Origin: Dehalococcoidia bacterium
GTDB lineage: Bacteria > Chloroflexota > Dehalococcoidia > Tepidiformales > Tepidiformaceae
Reading direction: 5' to 3'
Assembly: GCA_009838385.1 (NCBI GenBank)
Contig: VXRS01000024.1
Coordinates: 1-6,609, forward strand
DNA: 6,609 nucleotides
The notes beneath the pieces were generated by a model, which was given only the letters and a program-made list of their open reading frames with translations, did not search any database and was not told the origin of the DNA. Shown one piece after another: positions 1 to 6,609 of the stretch (its first letter is position 1; the number at the start of each line of letters is the position of its first letter). The position numbers and the translations under genes are program-made.

Positions 1-239
1 AGCAGGAGGTCGCGTCCCTCCTCGCTGGCGAGGTCGATCACGATGCTGCGCTTGTTGCTGTTGTAGTTCAGGAAGTACTGGGGCAGGCCCGCGGCTGCGA
101 CCACGCCCCGGCCCGGGTCGCCCCGCGGCGACTCGATCTTGACGACGTCTGCCCCCAGCCAGCCGAGCAGCTGCGTGCACGAGGTCCCCGCCTCGTACTG
201 GGTCATGTCGAGCACCCGCATGCCATCAAGAGCCGGCAT
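1..239 (-). CDS. CaiB/BaiF family (family III) CoA-transferase, N-terminal part
   Basis: Read on the minus strand this gives 79 N-terminal residues, beginning MPALDGMRVLDMTQYEAGTS; the rest lies beyond the window edge. The opening LDGMRVLDMTQ, then LLGWLGADVVKIESPRGDP and NYNSNKRSIVIDLASEEGRD, is the characteristic N-terminal Rossmann-like half of family III CoA-transferases. These enzymes move CoA between an acyl-CoA and a free organic acid in the cytoplasm (formyl-CoA, carnitine or alpha-methylacyl-CoA type reactions). The catalytic Asp of the family lies further into the protein and is not visible, so the substrate cannot be named. The ATG at 239-237 is chosen because a GGAGG Shine-Dalgarno stands 6 nt upstream and a TATCAT -10 lies behind it. 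The gene is divergent from the membrane-protein gene at 334. Family assignment is secure, function only at class level. Confidence 0.9.
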   Translation of the reverse strand, partial: MPALDGMRVLDMTQYEAGTSCTQLLGWLGADVVKIESPRGDPGRGVVAAAGLPQYFLNYNSNKRSIVIDLASEEGRDLL

Positions 240-245
240 CCTGTC

Positions 246-271
246 CCTCCGGAACGACTGGCGCGATGATA
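246..271 (-). promoter_or_regulatory. Promoter -10 and Shine-Dalgarno of the CoA-transferase gene
   Basis: On the minus strand TATCAT (271-266) would place a transcription start near 259. GGAGG (250-246) then sits 6 nt before the ATG at 239. No good -35 hexamer is visible in the GC-rich DNA upstream. This is a conventional leadered start, unlike the divergent gene at 334. Confidence 0.5.
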
Positions 272-321
272 CTCCGCGGGCTCCCGCCGAGGAGTGCGGA
301 GAGCGTTCGCAGTGCGTGTCG

Positions 322-327
322 TATGCT
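322..327 (+). promoter_or_regulatory. -10 element of the membrane-protein gene, leaderless arrangement
   Basis: TATGCT at 322-327 is followed by exactly six bases and then the GTG at 334. A transcription start 7 nt after the -10 would fall on the first base of the start codon. There is no Shine-Dalgarno before 334, and no clear -35 about 17 bp upstream. The layout nearly duplicates that at 1051-1063. Confidence 0.5.
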
Positions 328-333
328 GGCCCC

Positions 334-1023
334 GTGGCGTCTGGGACAACGACGGACCGGCCAGATGAGGCCCCTGAGGACGCGCTCGACCCGCCTAACC
401 TGCCCGACTTCCGCAAGCTCGCCCACGGCGACTTCAGCGCCGTCGACTGGCGCATCTTCTGGAGCCTCCTGCCGCTTGTGGTCTTCCTGGTCCTGAATTC
501 GTTCTGGCCGGAAGACCTCTGGCGCACCCAGGTCGCGATCGTTGCCTCCTTCGCGGCCTCAACCTGGGTGTTCGCGACAAACCGCGACAGCGGCGTCATC
601 CGCTTCATCACCGTGCTCGGCTTCATCGTCGTGGCAGGGTCGGCGGTTGTGGGGCTCGCGGCCGACAGCGCCAAGGCGTTCGCCGCCCAGAACATCTACA
701 GCGACTTCCTCGTCGCCGCTGTCTGCCTCGGCAGCATCGCCATCGGGAAGCCGCTCGTCGGGGCGGTCGCGCGCGAGAGCATCCCCGCCCTCCGCACGCT
801 GATGGACCCGCGCCACCGCGTGTTCGTCATCCTCACGCTCGTGTTCATGACCTACAACATCGGCACCGGCATCTTCCGCATCTTCCTGCTGGGTGAGTTC
901 TCTGCCAACGAGTACGTCATCGTGAGCCGCGTCACGTCCCCCATCAGCCTCGCCTTCTTCCTCGCCGCCTACTTCATGATCAAGCGCGCCGCCGGACTCA
1001 GCCAGCAGAAACCCGCAACCTGA
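334..1023 (+). CDS. Multi-pass integral membrane protein, possibly DUF3159/VC0807-like
   Basis: 229 residues. An acidic, proline-rich cytoplasmic-looking N-terminus (about 1-38) is followed by hydrophobic segments near 41-57, 63-82, 88-109, 120-140, 163-186 and 195-216, so five or six membrane spans. A GKP motif (138-140) after the fourth segment and the overall size recall the DUF3159/VC0807 group of small inner-membrane proteins, some annotated as septation-protein-A-like; this is a resemblance from memory, not a firm assignment. Function is unknown. The reading frame is open back to an ATG at 139, but that start would overlap the CoA-transferase gene antisense and lacks a ribosome site. 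GTG 334, preceded by TATGCT, is preferred. The methyltransferase gene follows after 39 nt on the same strand with its own -10. Confidence 0.75.
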   Translation: MASGTTTDRPDEAPEDALDPPNLPDFRKLAHGDFSAVDWRIFWSLLPLVVFLVLNSFWPEDLWRTQVAIVASFAASTWVFATNRDSGVIRFITVLGFIVVAGSAVVGLAADSAKAFAAQNIYSDFLVAAVCLGSIAIGKPLVGAVARESIPALRTLMDPRHRVFVILTLVFMTYNIGTGIFRIFLLGEFSANEYVIVSRVTSPISLAFFLAAYFMIKRAAGLSQQKPAT

Positions 1024-1050
1024 CCCGCCGACCGGCCCGCGCCCGCTGCG

Positions 1051-1056
1051 TACAAT
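1051..1056 (+). promoter_or_regulatory. -10 element of the DNA methyltransferase gene, leaderless arrangement
   Basis: TACAAT at 1051-1056, then six bases, then GTG at 1063. The predicted transcription start coincides with the start codon and no Shine-Dalgarno is present. The methyltransferase therefore probably has its own promoter, although read-through from the membrane-protein gene is also possible. Confidence 0.55.
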
Positions 1057-1062
1057 GACCCC

Positions 1063-1956
1063 GTGGCGAAGCCGTTCCTGAAGTGGGCTGGGGGCAAGGC
1101 GAAACTTGCTCCGCTCATCGCCGAGCGGATCGGGCGGGAACCGAACCGGATTGCCCGTTATCACGAACCCTTCCTCGGCGGCGGCGCTGTCTTCTTCGCC
1201 CTGCACGAGGCCGGCCTCATCCGCGGCGCCTCCCTCGCCGACAGCAACGCCGACCTCATCGCCACCTACCAGGCCGTCCGCAACCAGGTCGAGGGCGTCA
1301 TCGACGCCCTCGATGCGTACGCACGGTCCTACCTCGCCCTCGAACCCTCGCAGCGCGGCCTCTACTACTACGACGTCCGAAACCAACGACGCCTCCGCCG
1401 CCCCGACCGAAGGGCCGCCCGACTCCTCTTCCTCAACAAGACCTGCTACAACGGCCTCTACCGCGTCAACAGCAAGGGTCACTTCAACGTCCCCCACGGG
1501 CGTTACGTGCGCCCCACCATCCTCGATGCCGAACGCCTCCGGGAAGCGTCAGCAGCCCTCGCCGGCGCCGAACTCCACGCCGAGGACTTCGCCGCCGCCT
1601 GCGCCCAAGCCCGGCCCGGAGATTTCGTCTACCTCGACCCCCCCTACCAGCCCCTGAGCGCAACCTCGCAGTTCACGAAGTACACGGGCGCAGACTTCGA
1701 CTTCGCGGACCAGGAGCGCCTGCGCGACGCGTTCGACGACCTCACGTCGCGGGGAGTACGGGCCTTGCTGTCGAACTCCTCCCACCCTGACATCCACGAC
1801 CTCTATCGGAACTACGATCAGGACCTCGTGCCGATGGGCCGAGCCATCAACTCGAACGGCCGTGGCCGCGCAGCCATCGACGAACTGCTTGTCAGCAATC
1901 TTTCGCAGGTGGAGAGCGAGGTTAGCCGCGTAGCTCCAGCCCGAAGTAGAGCCTGA
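1063..1956 (+). CDS. D12-class adenine-N6 DNA methyltransferase (Dam/DpnM-like)
   Basis: 297 residues, a normal length for the family. It transfers a methyl group from S-adenosylmethionine to adenine N6 in a specific duplex DNA site. Visible motifs in order: KWAGGK (7-12), the N-terminal AdoMet-binding signature; EPFLGGGAVFF (35-45), motif I; LFLNKTCYNGLYRVNSKG (122-139), the conserved Dam-family segment next to target recognition; DPPY (192-195), catalytic motif IV; and a C-terminal NSNGRGRAAIDELLVSN stretch (263-279). Many members methylate GATC, but others have different sites, so specificity is inferred at best. GTG 1063 is the first start after the -10 and gives the canonical MAKPFLKWAGGK opening. 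The last 35 bp overlap the convergent nuclease gene, which makes this the probable protective half of a restriction-modification pair. It could alternatively be an orphan methylase. Confidence 0.93.
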   Translation: MAKPFLKWAGGKAKLAPLIAERIGREPNRIARYHEPFLGGGAVFFALHEAGLIRGASLADSNADLIATYQAVRNQVEGVIDALDAYARSYLALEPSQRGLYYYDVRNQRRLRRPDRRAARLLFLNKTCYNGLYRVNSKGHFNVPHGRYVRPTILDAERLREASAALAGAELHAEDFAAACAQARPGDFVYLDPPYQPLSATSQFTKYTGADFDFADQERLRDAFDDLTSRGVRALLSNSSHPDIHDLYRNYDQDLVPMGRAINSNGRGRAAIDELLVSNLSQVESEVSRVAPARSRA

Positions 1957-2323
1957 GCCAGACCTCAAGGTCGTCGAACGCGATCGCCTTGCCGGTCGAG
2001 TCGAGGTAGGCCCGCATATTCGCCGAGAAGCCTGGACCGTCGTAGGCCACGATGCCGTCGATGGGCCAGCTCTCGATGTCGGCGATCACAGCCGGAAGTT
2101 TCTCTTGCGCCGTACCTGCGGTCCTCTGGTACTTGCACTCGATTCCGAGGCGCTGGCCACTCTCGGGGTCGGTCAGGATGAGGTCGATCCTGCGCCTGGA
2201 GCCCCAGAGGCGGCGTCCGACATAGAGTTCCTTGTCGACCGTGAGTGCAAGCCTCTCGGCAAGCTCGGCGACTCGATCCCGGAACTGGGTGCCGGTCAGA
2301 GTCGACTCGCCGCGCCCGGGCAC
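1922..2323 (-). CDS. Small PD-(D/E)XK nuclease, probable restriction endonuclease
   Basis: 133 residues. The core shows D47 in RRIDLIL and E62-C-K64 in GIECKYQ, a D-X14-E-X-K arrangement typical of PD-(D/E)XK metal-dependent nucleases. Glu residues in helix 1 (E20, E23) could supply the fourth metal ligand. Downstream of the K, the segment KYQRTAGTAQEKL (64-76) followed by a conserved-looking helix and strand (WPIDGIVAYDGPG, 86-98) resembles a group of short PD-(D/E)XK proteins found in bacteria and phages. The start is GTG 2323; a TAG in the same frame lies three codons upstream. Shine-Dalgarno is weak (a GGCGGG about 13 nt before) and no TANNNT hexamer is well placed, so expression probably depends on the hydrolase transcript ending 6 nt upstream. 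It converges on the methyltransferase gene, so a cognate restriction role is likely; a repair or mobile-element nuclease is the alternative. Confidence 0.8.
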   Translation of the reverse strand: MPGRGESTLTGTQFRDRVAELAERLALTVDKELYVGRRLWGSRRRIDLILTDPESGQRLGIECKYQRTAGTAQEKLPAVIADIESWPIDGIVAYDGPGFSANMRAYLDSTGKAIAFDDLEVWLRLYFGLELRG

Positions 2324-2329
2324 GGGTGA

Positions 2330-3136
2330 CTAGCCCGCCGGGACCGGCGCCGCCAGGAACTCCGTGATCGCCGCCGCGTAGGCCTGCGGGTGCTCGACCA
2401 GGCCTGCGTGCGCGCCCGGAAGCTGGCGCAGCGTCCCGTTCGGGAGCGCCTCCGCCAGCGCGGCCGCGTCCGCCGGGTCGACGAGGATGTCCTCCTCGCC
2501 GGAGAGCACGAGCGCTGGCTGCTCGATGCCGGCGAGCTTTGAGGACGCGTCGTAGGCGAGGAACGCCTGCGCCTGCCGCGTGTAGGCGTGGTCCTGGGCC
2601 GGATACGGGTCATTCGCGCCGCTCTCGACCGCCTGGTTGCGACGCTGCCCGTCTGCCAGGAGCTCGGAGGTGTACAGCCACGGCGCCGTGAGCGCGAACG
2701 CCTGCTCGCGGCTCAGGTTCGAGCGCCGCGCGTCCGCCCAGCCCTCGCTCACGAGCCGTTGGCGGCCCGACGGGGTCGCCGACGTCCCGATCAGCACGAG
2801 GTTCTCGACGCGATCGGCGTGCTCGGCCGCCAGCTCCAGGGCGATTGCGCCGCCCATGCCGTAGCCGGCCACGCTCGCCGTCTCGATGTCGAGCTGGTCG
2901 AGCAGCTGGAGGGCGTCGTCCGCCATTCCCGCGATCGAGTACGGCTTGTCCGGGGCGCTCGTGCGGCCCGCGCCGCGGTTGTCGAAGGCGATCGCGCGCC
3001 GTCCCAGGGAGAGCGCGCGCAGCTGAAGTGACCACAGTCCCGAGTGGCCTCCGAGGCCCGCGATCAGCAGCAGTGGCGGGCCCGAGCCCGCCTCCTCGTA
3101 GTAGGCGACGACGTCCCGAAGCTGTACATGCGGCAT
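2330..3136 (-). CDS. Alpha/beta-hydrolase-fold protein lacking the nucleophile Ser
   Basis: 268 residues, usual for the enol-lactonase/epoxide-hydrolase-like branch. Features in order: HVQLRDVVAYYEEAGSGPPL N-terminal strands; LIAGLGG (24-30), the oxyanion-loop region usually HGxGG; FDNRGAGRTS (51-60); nucleophile elbow GYGMGG (91-96); GEEDILVD with the acid D216; and PGAHAGLVEHP with the probable catalytic H243. At the elbow the expected Ser of G-x-S-x-G is G93 (codon GGC), so the acid and His are present but the nucleophile is not. It may be inactive, use another mechanism, or act as a binding protein. ATG 3136 is preceded by TAGGCT with a 9-nt spacer. The gene lies 35 nt after asd and 6 nt before the nuclease, all on the minus strand. 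Substrate unknown. Confidence 0.85.
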   Translation of the reverse strand: MPHVQLRDVVAYYEEAGSGPPLLLIAGLGGHSGLWSLQLRALSLGRRAIAFDNRGAGRTSAPDKPYSIAGMADDALQLLDQLDIETASVAGYGMGGAIALELAAEHADRVENLVLIGTSATPSGRQRLVSEGWADARRSNLSREQAFALTAPWLYTSELLADGQRRNQAVESGANDPYPAQDHAYTRQAQAFLAYDASSKLAGIEQPALVLSGEEDILVDPADAAALAEALPNGTLRQLPGAHAGLVEHPQAYAAAITEFLAAPVPAG

Positions 3137-3142
3137 GACGCG

Positions 3143-3153
3143 GCTAGCCTAGC
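3143..3153 (-). promoter_or_regulatory. Hydrolase promoter: -10 hexamer inside an 11-bp palindrome
   Basis: On the minus strand TAGGCT (3151-3146) stands 9 nt before the ATG at 3136, giving a leader of only a few nucleotides. The hexamer is embedded in GCTAG-C-CTAGC (3143-3153), a perfect palindrome around one central base. A second, longer-spaced arm pair GCGGC (3140-3144) and GCCGC (3157-3161) surrounds it. It could be an operator over the -10, or a weak hairpin at the end of asd. No U-tract follows. Confidence 0.35.
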
Positions 3154-3171
3154 GGGGCCGCTGGCTACTGG

Positions 3172-4206
3172 CTATCGCCCAGAGCCCGGTCCCACCAGCC
3201 CCCGCCGGTCCGCTTCCTCGATGATCTGGACCACGTTCGTGGCCGCTCCCTTGCGGATGCTGTCCGTCACCGCCCAGAGCGCGATCGCCCCGGGACACGA
3301 GCTGTCCGCGCGGATGCGTCCGACCAGTACGTCGTCGTTCCCCGCCGCGTCCACCGGCGTGGGGTAGCGCTCCCCGTCCGGCTCGTCCACCACGCGCACG
3401 CCCGGCATCGTCGCGATCGCCTCGCGCGCCTCCGCCGGTTCCACGGGCCGCTCGAACTCCGCCCAGATCGCCATCGCGTGCCCGAAGAAGGTGGGAATGC
3501 GCACGCAGGTCGCGCTGACGGCGAGGTCTGGCGCGTCGAGGATCTTGCGCGTCTCGTTCGCCATCTTCGTTTCCTCCTTGGTGGAGGCGTCCTCGCCGAA
3601 GACGTCGACCTGGGGCACGGCGTTGAACGCGATCTCGCGCTTCTGCGTCCCCGAGGGTTCGTGCCGGCCCGCGAGCGCGGCCGTCGTTTCCGTGCGCAGC
3701 CCCTCCACCGCCGCCGCCCCCGCGCCCGCCACCGCCTGGTACGTGCTCACGACGATGCGCCGCAGCGGGTTCTCTCGATGGATTGGGTAGAGCGCCATCA
3801 CCATCGGCGTCGTCGTGCAGTTCGGCTGGCTCACGATGCCGTTGTGCCAGCTCAGCGCGTCCGCGTTCACCTCGGGGATGACGAGCGGCACCTCGGGGTC
3901 CATCCGAAACGCGCTCGAGTCGTCGATGACGAGCGCGCCGCGGTCGCGCGCAAGCGGCGCGTACTGCCGCGAAGCCTCGCCCGAGGCCGACAGGAACACG
4001 ACATCGTCGTCACCCGCGAAGGACGTCGGCGAGGTCTCCTCGATGGTGATCGTGGAGCCCCGGAACTCGACCGTCGAACCAGCCGAGCGCTTCGTCGCGA
4101 GCAGCCGCAGGCGCCCGACCGGCGTCTCGCGCTCGTCGAGGATCTTGAGGAATTCGCGGCCCACGATTCCCGCGCCGCCGACCACCGTGATCGCGTAGGG
4201 ATTCAT
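3172..4206 (-). CDS. asd: Aspartate-semialdehyde dehydrogenase
   Basis: 344 residues, normal length. It reduces L-aspartyl-4-phosphate with NADPH to L-aspartate-4-semialdehyde, the cytoplasmic branch point toward lysine/diaminopimelate, threonine and methionine. Evidence: nucleotide loop VVGGAGIVG (8-16, usually GATGxVG); FLSASGEASRQYAP (71-84); VIDDSSAFRMDPEVPLVIPE (93-112); SQPNCTT with catalytic C130; KEETKM (210-215), the phosphate/substrate-binding segment; RIPTFFGHA with R236 and the general-base H243; and RKGAATN (318-324) near the C-terminus. ATG 4206 is chosen because TACCAT lies 7 nt upstream and family members begin close to the first strand. An ATG 9 nt further upstream (4215) overlaps that -10. 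The hydrolase follows after 35 nt and the nuclease after that, so asd may head a three-gene transcript. No other lysine-pathway genes (lysC, dapA) are in view. Confidence 0.95.
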   Translation of the reverse strand: MNPYAITVVGGAGIVGREFLKILDERETPVGRLRLLATKRSAGSTVEFRGSTITIEETSPTSFAGDDDVVFLSASGEASRQYAPLARDRGALVIDDSSAFRMDPEVPLVIPEVNADALSWHNGIVSQPNCTTTPMVMALYPIHRENPLRRIVVSTYQAVAGAGAAAVEGLRTETTAALAGRHEPSGTQKREIAFNAVPQVDVFGEDASTKEETKMANETRKILDAPDLAVSATCVRIPTFFGHAMAIWAEFERPVEPAEAREAIATMPGVRVVDEPDGERYPTPVDAAGNDDVLVGRIRADSSCPGAIALWAVTDSIRKGAATNVVQIIEEADRRGLVGPGSGR

Positions 4207-4213
4207 GCTTCGC

Positions 4214-4219
4214 ATGGTA
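4214..4219 (-). promoter_or_regulatory. -10 element of asd
   Basis: TACCAT on the minus strand (4219-4214), then 7 nt (GCGAAGC), then ATG 4206. No Shine-Dalgarno is present, so a leaderless or one-base-leader mRNA is likely. The -35 position for a 17-bp spacer would be 4242-4237 (TGGGTC), a poor match. Confidence 0.45.
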
Positions 4220-4238
4220 GCGCACGGTCCCGTACCGA

Positions 4239-4252
4239 CCCACGCACGTGGG
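4239..4252. repeat. Inverted repeat upstream of asd, possible operator
   Basis: CCCACG-CA-CGTGGG, two perfect 6-bp arms around 2 bp, in the 84-bp gap between the four-cysteine gene and asd. It overlaps the expected -35 position of the asd promoter. The loop is too small for a normal RNA terminator hairpin, and no T-run follows. A DNA-binding site is the better reading, but a repeat of this size can arise by chance in GC-rich DNA. Confidence 0.3.
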
Positions 4253-4290
4253 CATGCTGCAGGGCGAAGGGAAGCGGGTATTCGGGCGCG

Positions 4291-4575
4291 CTAGTCGACG
4301 GTGGCGGGCTCGGTCGGCTGCGGTTCCAGTTCGACCGCCGGCTCGACCGCGGGAGGCTCAAGCGCCTTTGGCTTGGGCTCCATGTGCTCCAGCCCGGCGA
4401 TGCTGAATCCCAGATCACCCAGCTCGCAGAGGAAGCTGCAGTAGGTGAGGCGCAGGGAACTGGTCGACTTGGAAGGCACGTAGCGAAGATCGCAGCGCAC
4501 GCACAGCAGCATCTCCTCGCTATCCGGGCCAAAGACCGGGGTCGGCAGGGAGTCGGGACCAGATGATTCAACCAT
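4291..4575 (-). CDS. Small four-cysteine (zinc-ribbon/TRASH-like) protein with Pro/Glu tail
   Basis: 94 residues from ATG 4575. Cysteines fall at 25, 28, 46 and 50 (CVRC ... YCSFLC), a C-X2-C-X17-C-X3-C pattern expected to bind one zinc or other metal ion. The spacing recalls TRASH/MYM-type treble-clef domains, whose second pair is C-X3-C, but I do not recognise a specific family. The N-terminus (1-20) is acidic and proline-containing. From about residue 64 the C-terminus is low-complexity, with EP repeated (EPKP, LEPP, VEP, LEPQP, TEP), probably disordered. The start is supported by TAGAGT 10 nt upstream; the frame is open back to an ATG at 4617, but that would include the promoter. The cysteine pattern favours this frame over the overlapping 4203-4580 frame. 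Divergent from the PAP2 gene. Function unknown; metal sensing or nucleic-acid or protein binding are possibilities. Confidence 0.7.
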   Translation of the reverse strand: MVESSGPDSLPTPVFGPDSEEMLLCVRCDLRYVPSKSTSSLRLTYCSFLCELGDLGFSIAGLEHMEPKPKALEPPAVEPAVELEPQPTEPATVD

Positions 4576-4585
4576 CGCACTCACC

Positions 4586-4591
4586 ACTCTA
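4586..4591 (-). promoter_or_regulatory. -10 element of the four-cysteine protein gene
   Basis: TAGAGT on the minus strand (4591-4586), 10 nt before ATG 4575, predicting a leader of about 4 nt. Two in-frame GTG codons (4587 and 4584) overlap or follow it and are less likely starts. It forms half of a bidirectional promoter region with the PAP2 promoter at 4642-4670. Confidence 0.35.
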
Positions 4592-4620
4592 ACGCTTCGC
4601 GGACCGACCGCAAGCAAACG

Positions 4621-4649
4621 CGCTTCAATCTGAACGGATTCTTGAAGCG
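4621..4649. repeat. 8-bp inverted repeat over the PAP2 -35 region, candidate operator
   Basis: CGCTTCAA (4621-4628) and TTGAAGCG (4642-4649) are perfect inverted arms with a 13-bp centre, so arm centres lie 21 bp apart, two helical turns. The right arm contains the TTGAAG -35 hexamer. A further CGCTTC half-site is at 4593-4598, next to the divergent promoter. The layout fits a dimeric repressor or activator site shared by the two divergent genes. Confidence 0.45.
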
Positions 4650-4670
4650 GCTTGCCGAGGCTGGTAGCCT
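4642..4670 (+). promoter_or_regulatory. Sigma70-type promoter of the PAP2 gene
   Basis: TTGAAG (4642-4647), a 17-bp spacer, then TAGCCT (4665-4670). This is the best two-hexamer promoter in the window. The transcription start would fall near 4677, giving a leader of about 38 nt ending in a strong Shine-Dalgarno. TAGCC (4665-4669) and GGCTA (4676-4680) form a small inverted repeat over the -10 and start site. Confidence 0.55.
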
Positions 4671-4703
4671 CGTAGGGCTAGACCACTCCACGCAGCAAGC
4701 CTT

Positions 4704-4712
4704 GGAGGGAGG
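4704..4712 (+). promoter_or_regulatory. Strong Shine-Dalgarno of the PAP2 gene
   Basis: GGAGGGAGG at 4704-4712, just before ATG 4715. The first GGAGG (4704-4708) has a 6-nt spacing and decides the start. It shows that the organism uses ordinary ribosome sites alongside the apparently leaderless genes. Confidence 0.7.
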
Positions 4713-4714
4713 CG

Positions 4715-5647
4715 ATGCAGCGTCCGCAGTTCCTTTCTCGCCCCACCACCCGGCCTCTTCCGTGGTATCTGGATGTGCGCAGGCTGGGCATCGCCTCTGT
4801 CGAGATGTTCGGCACGGTCGGGGCGCTCTTCATCTACTTCTTCGTCCGCGGCGGAAGGCCCGATGACATCGAGGCCTCGCTCAGTCGCGGCCTCCAGATC
4901 ATCGATCTGGAGAAGCGGCTGGGAATCTTCACGGAACTGCACTGGCAGGAGTTCTTCCTCCCCTATGAGCTCCTGATGGACATCGCCAACCAGGTCTACG
5001 CCTGGGGCCACTACCCCGTCCTCGCCGCCATCGGCACCTGGCTCGCCATCAAGAACCCCTCCCGCTTCCGCTTTGTCCGAAACGTCATGCTCCTCTCCGG
5101 GATCGTCGGGATCGTCTCCTACTGGCTCCTGCCGACGGCCCCGCCCCGCCTCATCCACCTCTCCGGTATCGATTTCGGCTTCGTCGATACCGTTCACGGC
5201 AGCGCCGACGTGGTCTACCTCCAGCCCGCGCCCTTCGTGAACGACTTCGCCGCCCTTCCGAGCTTCCACTTCGGCTGGATCGCCCTTGCCTCGGCGGCTA
5301 TCTGGGTGAACACGAACAACCCCTTCCTGCGTGCCTTTGCCGTCGCCCTTTCCGTCGTGATGTGGTGGGCCATCGTCGTCACCGGGAACCACTTCTTCTT
5401 CGACATGATCGCCGGTGGAGTCGTCGTAGCCGTCTGCTGGATCGCCGTCGCGTACCTCGACCGCATCGGCGTGAGCGCCCGGCTGACGGAGTTCCTCTTC
5501 GCCGGCGTACGACGTCTGCGCTCCTACCTTGGCGCCTTCCTGCACCGCCACGTGGTTGAGCGGCTGCGCCCCCACCTGGCTCCACGCCTGCGGGCGCCTC
5601 GTGTGGACGAGTGGCGGCGCTCGCGCGGCAAGGACGCGGTAGCGTAG
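4715..5647 (+). CDS. PAP2-superfamily membrane phosphatase/phosphotransferase (PAP2_3-like)
   Basis: 310 residues. Six likely membrane spans lie near 27-44, 95-112, 122-139, 186-198, 205-223 and 231-248. The phosphatase signature is PTAPPRL (140-146), LPSFHFGW (181-188, with PSxH at 182-185) and GNHFFFDMIAGG (224-235, with H226 and D230 as the catalytic pair). This spacing and the PTAPPR element match the inositol-phosphorylceramide-synthase-like PAP2_3 group rather than classical PgpB. Such proteins cleave or transfer phosphate on lipid phosphates at the membrane. The exact lipid is unknown; phosphatidic acid phosphatase, polyprenyl-diphosphate phosphatase or a phospho-head-group transferase are all possible. 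The C-terminal 45 or so residues are strongly basic (many Arg, with His), probably cytoplasmic and facing lipid head groups. The next gene starts 10 nt after its TAG stop. Confidence 0.9.
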   Translation: MQRPQFLSRPTTRPLPWYLDVRRLGIASVEMFGTVGALFIYFFVRGGRPDDIEASLSRGLQIIDLEKRLGIFTELHWQEFFLPYELLMDIANQVYAWGHYPVLAAIGTWLAIKNPSRFRFVRNVMLLSGIVGIVSYWLLPTAPPRLIHLSGIDFGFVDTVHGSADVVYLQPAPFVNDFAALPSFHFGWIALASAAIWVNTNNPFLRAFAVALSVVMWWAIVVTGNHFFFDMIAGGVVVAVCWIAVAYLDRIGVSARLTEFLFAGVRRLRSYLGAFLHRHVVERLRPHLAPRLRAPRVDEWRRSRGKDAVA

Positions 5648-5650
5648 CCT
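5645..5650 (+). promoter_or_regulatory. -10-like hexamer overlapping the PAP2 stop codon
   Basis: TAGCCT at 5645-5650, identical to the PAP2 -10. Its first three bases are the TAG stop of the PAP2 gene. Seven bases separate it from GTG 5658, the same arrangement as at asd, so the downstream gene may have its own leaderless transcript as well as read-through. No -35 is evident. Confidence 0.35.
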
Positions 5651-5657
5651 CCCGCCC

Positions 5658-6479
5658 GTGCCCGAGCTTGATCGCGGAACCTGGACCCTCGCCTACGATG
5701 TCGCCGGCGCTGCGGCTGCCCCCGCCGCCCTCCTCCTCCACGACATCCCCGACGACCGCCGCGTCTGGCGCGCGCTCGCCACGGACATGGTCGAGGTGTT
5801 CCGCACGATCGCGCCCGACCTCCGTGGCTTCGGCGAGAGCGGCCAGCCCCCCGACCCCGCCGCACCCTCGGCGATGCGCGACTACGCCGCCGACCTCATG
5901 GCCCTGCTCGACGCCGAGAGCGTGAGCGCCTGCGCCGTCATCGGCGCGGGCTTCGGCGCCGAGGTGGCGCTTGAGCTCGCCCTCGACGCCCCCGATCGCG
6001 TCGACCTCATCGTGCTCAACGGCGCCCTCCCCGCCGCCGACCACCCCACCTACAACGAGGCCCTCCGCGCCTGCGAGGCCGAGCGCGTCGAGCACGGTCG
6101 TCTCGCGGGCCGGTTCGGCACCGGACGTGTCGGCGCCGGCGCGGCCATGCCCCTCACGGGCGCCTACCTGCGCGCCTCCGCCCGCGAACGCTACCGGCAA
6201 ACGGATGCCGACGCCTTCGCCGCCGCCCACGCCGCCCGCGCTGACCGCGACGACCTGCTGGGGCGGCTCGCCGCCCTCCCTGTGCCCGCCCTGGTGGTTG
6301 CGGGCGAGGAAGACCCCCTCTTGCCAGCGGCGCGGCTCCTCGCGGAGACGCTTCCGAACGGCCGTCTCGAGGTCCTCCAGGGCTGCGGGCGGGGCGCGCC
6401 TTTCGTCGCTCCGCGCGCCTTCGAGGGGGCGCTGGGCGCCTTCCTCGGCGATGTTCGCGCCGCCGGCGCGCACACCTAG
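5658..6479 (+). CDS. Alpha/beta-hydrolase-fold protein lacking catalytic Ser and His
   Basis: 273 residues. Fold landmarks: LLLHDIPDDRRVW (25-37), where HDIPDD replaces the oxyanion HGxGG; PDLRGFGESGQP (53-64); nucleophile-elbow position GAGFGAE (96-102); GEEDPLLP (216-223) with the acid D219; and GCGRGAPFVAPRAF (242-255). The elbow Ser is Gly (G98, codon GGC), and the usual G-x-G-H has Arg (R245, CGG) in place of His, so two of three triad residues are missing. The sequence is otherwise intact and uninterrupted. It is probably a non-hydrolytic member, for example a binding or scaffold protein, or an enzyme with another mechanism. The GTG start is 10 nt after the PAP2 stop, so co-transcription with that membrane protein is likely. 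It resembles the minus-strand hydrolase at 2330-3136 (shared GEED and LPNG blocks) and may be a distant paralogue. Confidence 0.82.
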   Translation: MPELDRGTWTLAYDVAGAAAAPAALLLHDIPDDRRVWRALATDMVEVFRTIAPDLRGFGESGQPPDPAAPSAMRDYAADLMALLDAESVSACAVIGAGFGAEVALELALDAPDRVDLIVLNGALPAADHPTYNEALRACEAERVEHGRLAGRFGTGRVGAGAAMPLTGAYLRASARERYRQTDADAFAAAHAARADRDDLLGRLAALPVPALVVAGEEDPLLPAARLLAETLPNGRLEVLQGCGRGAPFVAPRAFEGALGAFLGDVRAAGAHT

Positions 6480-6487
6480 CCGCCAAT

Positions 6488-6504
6488 GCCCGCAGGGGTC
6501 GGGC
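6488..6504 (+). other. Weak hairpin after the second hydrolase gene
   Basis: GCCCG (6488-6492) and CGGGC (6500-6504) with a 7-nt loop could form a short GC hairpin 8 nt after the stop. No T-tract follows, and it lies just upstream of the next -10. It may be a poor terminator or simply GC-rich background. Confidence 0.2.
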
Positions 6505-6507
6505 TGC

Positions 6508-6544
6508 TATACTCGAACTCGCTCCCTACGACTCACCAAGGGGT
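6508..6544 (+). promoter_or_regulatory. Promoter -10 and ribosome site of the exported-protein gene
   Basis: TATACT (6508-6513) is a good -10. AAGGGG (6539-6544) is a plausible Shine-Dalgarno, 10 nt before ATG 6555, somewhat long. No matching -35 is seen near 6485-6490. The leader would be about 35 nt. Confidence 0.5.
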
Positions 6545-6554
6545 TGCCAACGCA

Positions 6555-6609
6555 ATGAAGCGCATTCTCGCCCTCCTCGTTCTCCTCGCCGTCGCCGCCT
6601 CTGTGGTGG
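6555..6609 (+). CDS. N-terminal signal peptide of an exported protein (partial)
   Basis: Only 18 codons are in the window: MKRILALLVLLAVAASVV. Two basic residues followed by an uninterrupted Leu/Val/Ala core are a typical Sec signal peptide or lipoprotein signal. The gene runs off the window edge, so neither a cleavage site nor a lipobox Cys can be seen. A good -10 (TATACT) and an AAGGGG ribosome site upstream support the ATG at 6555. The mature protein cannot be identified. Confidence 0.65.
   Translation, partial: MKRILALLVLLAVAASVV

Follow-up and report, generated by a model that had tools for sequence, protein, structure and literature searches.

Does the gene for a Dam-type D12 methyltransferase that meets a very small PD-(D/E)XK nuclease gene tail to tail in a genome of the Dehalococcoidia form a restriction-modification (R-M) system with it, and which DNA site would such a pair recognize? 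The two genes lie in the window analyzed here, a stretch of 6,609 nucleotides (contig VXRS01000024.1, positions 1 to 6,609), whose relevant features are as follows.

403..1023 (start provisional), plus strand: gene for a VC0807-like membrane protein, the conserved left flank (NF041646 46 bits, below the cut-off of 65)
1063-1956, plus strand: D12 methyltransferase ORF (GTG start, TGA stop, 297 aa)
1922-1956: convergent 3' overlap of the D12 and nuclease ORFs, 35 bp
1922-2323, minus strand: nuclease ORF (GTG start, TAA stop, 133 aa)
2330..3136, minus strand: alpha/beta hydrolase gene (PF00561), the conserved right flank
3172..4215, minus strand: asd, aspartate-semialdehyde dehydrogenase, in the same minus-strand run (NF011456 and TIGR01296 over cut-off)

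Layout of the gene pair and its locus

The ORF coordinates and a terminator scan bear out the arrangement that an earlier note on this DNA had described, a D12 gene and a PD-(D/E)XK gene that share 35 bp with no terminator. Thirty-nine base pairs separate the VC0807-like gene from the D12 gene, both on the plus strand. On the minus strand the hydrolase gene, which itself comes after asd, stops 6 bp before the nuclease start, so that the nuclease gene is placed for reading together with the asd and hydrolase genes; it appears to close this run, from which we infer co-transcription. A 108-residue ORF (4294-4617, minus strand) has no Pfam or NCBIfam match and is conserved in L001-L007, L112, and L113.

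The whole window aligns to three Chloroflexota loci (L001-L003) at 92 to 94% identity. Within the methyltransferase gene, window positions 1201-1400 are 51 to 60% identical to L001 when counted per 100 bases, the rest of the window ranging from 78 to 100%; this divergent stretch suggests local recombination or replacement. The VC0807-like left flank is syntenic in L001-L007, L112, and L113, and the hydrolase right flank is conserved at the same-locus relatives. The 35-bp convergent overlap is exact in six related loci (L001-L005 and L007); at L006, which is the same locus, the nuclease gene is followed by the methyltransferase gene in tandem, and convergent pairs elsewhere range from an overlap of 157 bp to gaps. 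The recurrence of the overlap in six loci and of methyltransferase adjacency across many phyla (see below) shows that the arrangement of the pair exceeds chance.

It had been proposed that the convergent overlap might limit the nuclease. This was not upheld: most D12 pairs are tandem (55 of 73), so the family as a whole does not share antisense control of the nuclease, and L006 is tandem in spite of its close relationship and identical locus. A search for terminator-like sites gave none at the overlap and two between 900 and 3200 (at 1176 and 2079), shuffled sequences giving 0.8, and the predicted RNA fold of positions 1880-2000 is no more stable than that of shuffled sequences (z = -0.42). 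With no terminator, an ordinary RNA fold, and an exact overlap limited to near relatives, antisense or terminator control at the overlap was rejected.

Family and fold of the small nuclease

The window nuclease belongs to PF20472 (PDDEXK_11), scoring 73.5 bits against a curated cut-off of 23.7. The Pfam entry names no function, and a literature text search for PDDEXK_11 or PF20472 found no paper; the description of the protein as a member of an uncharacterized restriction endonuclease family stands to that extent and goes no further. No PADLOC or NCBIfam model claims the nuclease, and its sub-threshold Pfam matches are MTES_1575 and DUF234. The family is large (3156 proteins at E ≤ 0.001 among 7998 candidates scored). 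D47, E62, and K64 are invariant, both in a 137-sequence alignment and at 80 of 80 genomic loci.

The structure model of the nuclease (pLDDT 86.6, pTM 0.82) is PD-(D/E)XK-like. D47 lies on the strand formed by residues 43-51 and E62 and K64 on the next (58-65); the model thus brings the three residues together on adjacent strands, as expected from the catalytic assignment that the earlier note had made. Structure comparison matches the model to BstEII (9ibq), with other nuclease folds less than 1 Z unit away and Holliday junction resolvases next at Z 7-8; the identity of BstEII (target length 286) to the window nuclease is 12%, and a common fold alone is shown. The first Foldseek match of the model is an R2 retrotransposon protein. 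Among solved structures, no sequence relative was found for the nuclease alone, and its profile retrieved one apparently unrelated chain (E 1.4).

The nuclease had been judged to be unlike a standard DpnII/MboI enzyme, and at the sequence level this is supported: a BLASTP comparison with the enzyme of pSRQ700, which we take to be the LlaDCHI plasmid, gave E 0.97, and PF04556 (DpnII endonuclease) is absent among the Pfam matches up to E 1. The MutH family model is absent as well (Pfam up to E 1, NCBIfam up to E 0.01). Alignment of the nuclease profile with three DpnII enzymes by hhalign is weak (probability 3.9%, E 0.011); it lines up the R-R-x-D...E of the PF20472 nuclease and DpnII with the same 15-residue D-E spacing. 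This alignment might reflect a very remote kinship between PF20472 and DpnII.

Methyltransferase partners and the predicted target

A genome collection was scanned with a 45-sequence alignment; 118 stretches encode relatives of the nuclease, and the best 80 of these 118 were kept. D12 partners were sought by tblastn with the window D12. Conserved pairing lends weight to the earlier proposal of an R-M pair with a small nuclease: a D12 gene lies beside the nuclease in 73 of the 80 loci and a DpnA-like methyltransferase in four of the other seven, so that homologs do not regularly occur without a methylase. Two nucleases are at a contig end (L015 and L016, with D12 on another contig of each genome) and one is solitary, which leaves methyltransferase pairing in 77/78 loci once the two cut off next to the nuclease are set aside. 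This frequency, together with the persistence of Dam where the nuclease has gone (L112 and L113; see below), makes it very improbable that the protein is a Holliday junction resolvase-like or other repair nuclease that stands by chance beside an orphan Dam.

The 73 D12 pairs comprise 32 tandem pairs with the nuclease first, 23 tandem pairs with the methyltransferase first, and 18 convergent pairs. The two genes are at most 500 bp apart in 70 of them and more widely spaced in L023 (2297 bp), L026 (2781 bp), and L080 (1000 bp). At L080 a 287-residue protein without a family match over cut-off is encoded between nuclease and D12 (L080:8378-9241). At one Acidobacteriota locus, a gene for a DUF7226 protein separates D12 from the nuclease (L052:7540-7980), and at L065:7255-7995 the nuclease has an additional D12-like match, less closely related (31%), on its other side.

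A second, partly overlapping sample comprised 294 genomes of the class, 45 of them with a match; among the best 30 loci, which were fetched, D12 was found in 27 stretches. In two of the misses, L095 (the L023 genome) and L094 (which matches L026 by coordinates), D12 lies beyond the fetched piece, and the third, L108, is at a contig end. Nuclease and D12 distances correlate with r = 0.66 (71 of the 73 pairs, two short D12 matches having been dropped), a value that also reflects shared host descent. The solitary nuclease (L018:7848-8390) lies downstream of a gene that, from its sequence, is presumably panB-like; neither a D12 nor a DpnA-like gene was found in this 2.2-Mb genome, which may be incomplete.

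The D12 protein scores 183 bits against PF02086 MethyltransfD12 (cut-off 22), exceeds the cut-off of TIGR00571 “dam”, and contains a DPPY motif. Its best solved matches are DpnII methyltransferase 1 (2dpm, 4e-58) and Escherichia coli Dam (1.9e-39). According to a review, the GATC-reading residues of E. coli Dam are K9, L122, R124, and P134, and Y119 inserts between base pairs (PMC10073500); by homology the window equivalents are K7, L132, R134, and P144, with Y129 as the intercalating residue. Across the window D12 and its 73 counterparts (74 sequences), the K contact is kept in 73 (with one gap), L and R in all 74, and P in 73. At position 119, 39 sequences have Y and 35 have F, and no more than 53 retain R at the phosphate contact R137. 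Given that the GATC contacts of EcoDam are kept in nearly all partners, the D12 enzymes, that of the window included, are predicted to methylate GATC.

L034, L036, L050, and L055 have no adjoining D12 gene; a beta-class methyltransferase is encoded directly upstream of the nuclease. These four enzymes are 42 to 54% identical to the second methyltransferase of three DpnII-type operons and 35 to 41% identical to three CcrM-like enzymes, whose label rests on sequence and, for two of them, also on a ribonuclease HII neighbor. Each of the three reference operons combines a Dam-type gene, a second methyltransferase, and a PF04556 DpnII endonuclease, and one of them is on pSRQ700. The nearest NCBIfam model is CcrM, far under cut-off, for the three of the four partners that were scanned, and the nearest PDB entry is CcrM for the one that was searched. 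In a tree of 10 sequences only (the four partners, the three DpnII-operon methyltransferases, and the three CcrM-like enzymes), the partners join the DpnII-operon enzymes with a support of 100/100, on which ground CcrM/GANTC specificity was rejected. LlaDCHI is named among lactococcal systems specifying DpnI/DpnII isoschizomers, with GATC as the site (PMC4190342), and another source describes DpnM, DpnA, and DpnII in pneumococcus (PMC3573125).

In the nuclease tree (131 columns and 81 rows, with many weak forks) the four DpnA-like rows need three changes, also with only the strongly supported branches, the average for shuffled labels being 4.0. Other D12 matches in the genome number two for L055, three weak ones for L050, and none for L034, so that in the L055 and L050 genomes the DpnA-like neighbor need not be the sole GATC enzyme. 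Since the two methyltransferase classes that accompany this one nuclease family are unrelated and yet are both linked to GATC, the nuclease probably reads and cuts GATC too.

The likeness to DpnII/LlaDCHI systems extends from the window D12, with 2dpm as its best PDB match, to the DpnA-like methyltransferase in four loci related to the window and to GATC as the predicted target. The differences are in the endonuclease, which has 285-309 aa and belongs to PF04556 there versus 133 aa and PF20472 here, with no BLASTP similarity between the two, and in the gene number (three there, two in the window pair).

By gene content the pair is a type II R-M system whose biochemistry is predicted, and we hold it to be probable that it is a two-gene system for GATC with a putative endonuclease of the PDDEXK_11 family. 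Several observations weigh against this reading: the lack of clear GATC avoidance (see below), the solitary nuclease of L018, the closeness of other nuclease folds to BstEII in the structure comparison, with Foldseek placing a retrotransposon protein first, the lack of a PADLOC or NCBIfam model for the nuclease, and the lack of relatives in the plasmids, phages, and viral contigs searched. The D12 enzyme, presumably cognate to the nuclease, would place m6A on GATC in the host chromosome, and the 133-residue PD-(D/E)XK enzyme would cut unmarked incoming DNA at GATC, possibly in defense against phage or plasmid DNA. The nuclease would presumably act as a homodimer in which D47, E62, and K64 hold metal ions. 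A methylation-dependent, DpnI-like nuclease would likewise have GATC-linked neighbors; however, the coexisting and apparently intact D12 enzyme would then mark the host genome for cutting, and the probability of this alternative is close to negligible.

Loss, duplication, and role of the nuclease

The nuclease is present in 8 of the 38 genomes of the family of genome G003. Two relatives with the same flanks, L112 and L113, have lost the nuclease and kept D12. L112 retains an open D12 frame (84% identity), and its nuclease match is limited to the first 30 residues; after this remnant of about 30 residues come genes for a DUF433 and a DUF5615 protein (L112:7967-8755), a pair that we take to be of the toxin-antitoxin type. 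At L113 an orphan D12 (60%) is directly followed by the hydrolase gene, with no nuclease (L113:10347-12080). A decaying R-M system would be expected to lose its nuclease and retain D12 in this way, and the direction is the usual one. Orphan Dam enzymes belong to the same D12 family and have the same GATC contact residues as the window D12, which differs from them in having a nuclease gene attached; L113 represents the orphan state at the same locus. If the R-M reading is true, L112 and L113 capture, in natural genomes, the emergence of orphan Dam enzymes in this lineage.

In MutH/Dam methyl-directed mismatch repair, too, a Dam-type methyltransferase goes with a PD-(D/E)XK enzyme. A MutH-like nickase, which would serve mismatch repair by nicking hemimethylated GATC sites on the strand without methylation, would accord with the GATC methyltransferase partner, the small PD-(D/E)XK enzyme, and the stable chromosomal locus in L001-L007. 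However, 12 of 14 genomes searched contain MutL_C, including G246 and G263, which have no nuclease, and every one of the 12 MutL loci has the DQHA/DQHV...E motif of self-nicking MutL, which is expected where MutH is not needed. The MutL motif and the patchy distribution of the nuclease make a repair role less likely, and we regard it as quite improbable.

GATC observed/expected ratios were calculated from genome samples of 98 to 400 kb, that of G003 without the 20-kb piece in which the nuclease lies (340001-360000). Two carriers have ratios of 0.81 and 0.82, the two genomes with nuclease loss 0.84 each, and one non-carrier 0.88; the pooled value for the 80 carrier loci is 0.94, and the window has 37 GATC sites versus 36.3 expected. 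There is no clear GATC avoidance in these carriers, losers, non-carrier, and pooled loci, and as carriers and non-carriers are not discriminated, avoidance was discarded as evidence for restriction. For three Lake Biwa Chloroflexi genomes, GANTC, TTAA, and GCWGC are reported, and not GATC, in the available part of the source (PMC6329791). An R-M nuclease that reads a different or longer site, protected by Dam-type methylation inside it, would agree with the lack of clear avoidance and with a nuclease target that we infer from its partners; the pairing with DpnA-like enzymes as well is easiest to explain if GATC itself is the shared site, which renders this alternative improbable.

No relatives of the nuclease were found in viral contigs, PLSDB plasmids, or phages, and these searches thus gave no sign of mobility via such vehicles. 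The sole PHROG match is phrog_6124, which is weak (E 0.0043) and of unknown function.

Overlapping head-to-tail PDDEXK_11 ORFs occur beside D12 at three loci of a side branch.

L107:1429-2248: overlapping head-to-tail PDDEXK_11 ORFs
L109:1495-2342: overlapping head-to-tail PDDEXK_11 ORFs
L110:1055-1878: overlapping head-to-tail PDDEXK_11 ORFs

The D12-distal copy keeps D/E/K at all three loci; the D12-proximal copies keep D, with E62 replaced by A, V, or S and K64 by M, R, or M. Between L107 and L110 the nonsynonymous/synonymous ratio is ∼0.15 for the degraded and 0.05 for the active copy, synonymous sites being almost saturated. L109 has a degraded copy that is 40 to 42% identical to those of L107 and L110 and an active copy that is 86 to 95% identical to theirs. 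The nuclease is present in 11 of the 20 genomes of the side-branch order, eight with an intact D/E/K copy and three with altered copies only (D/Q/R in L205; D/E/R in L208 and L209). The active and degraded copies could represent a heterodimer with a dead subunit or decay under way. A farther-reaching scenario, in which PDDEXK_11 recognizes GATC independently of every GATC endonuclease described so far and one order-level group has duplicated it into active and dead subunits, possibly a strand-specific nickase heterodimer at GATC, is speculative and, in our judgment, unlikely.

In sum, the window holds a real, conserved, and compact gene pair, probably a GATC-type R-M system, whose endonuclease family has, according to our text searches, no function in print. 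If the proposed reading as an R-M system for GATC is true, thousands of proteins in a Pfam nuclease family would gain a function and a predicted target, the window would encode a very small GATC-cutting enzyme, and a single nuclease family would be able to work alongside methyltransferases of two classes that are unrelated but share the site.
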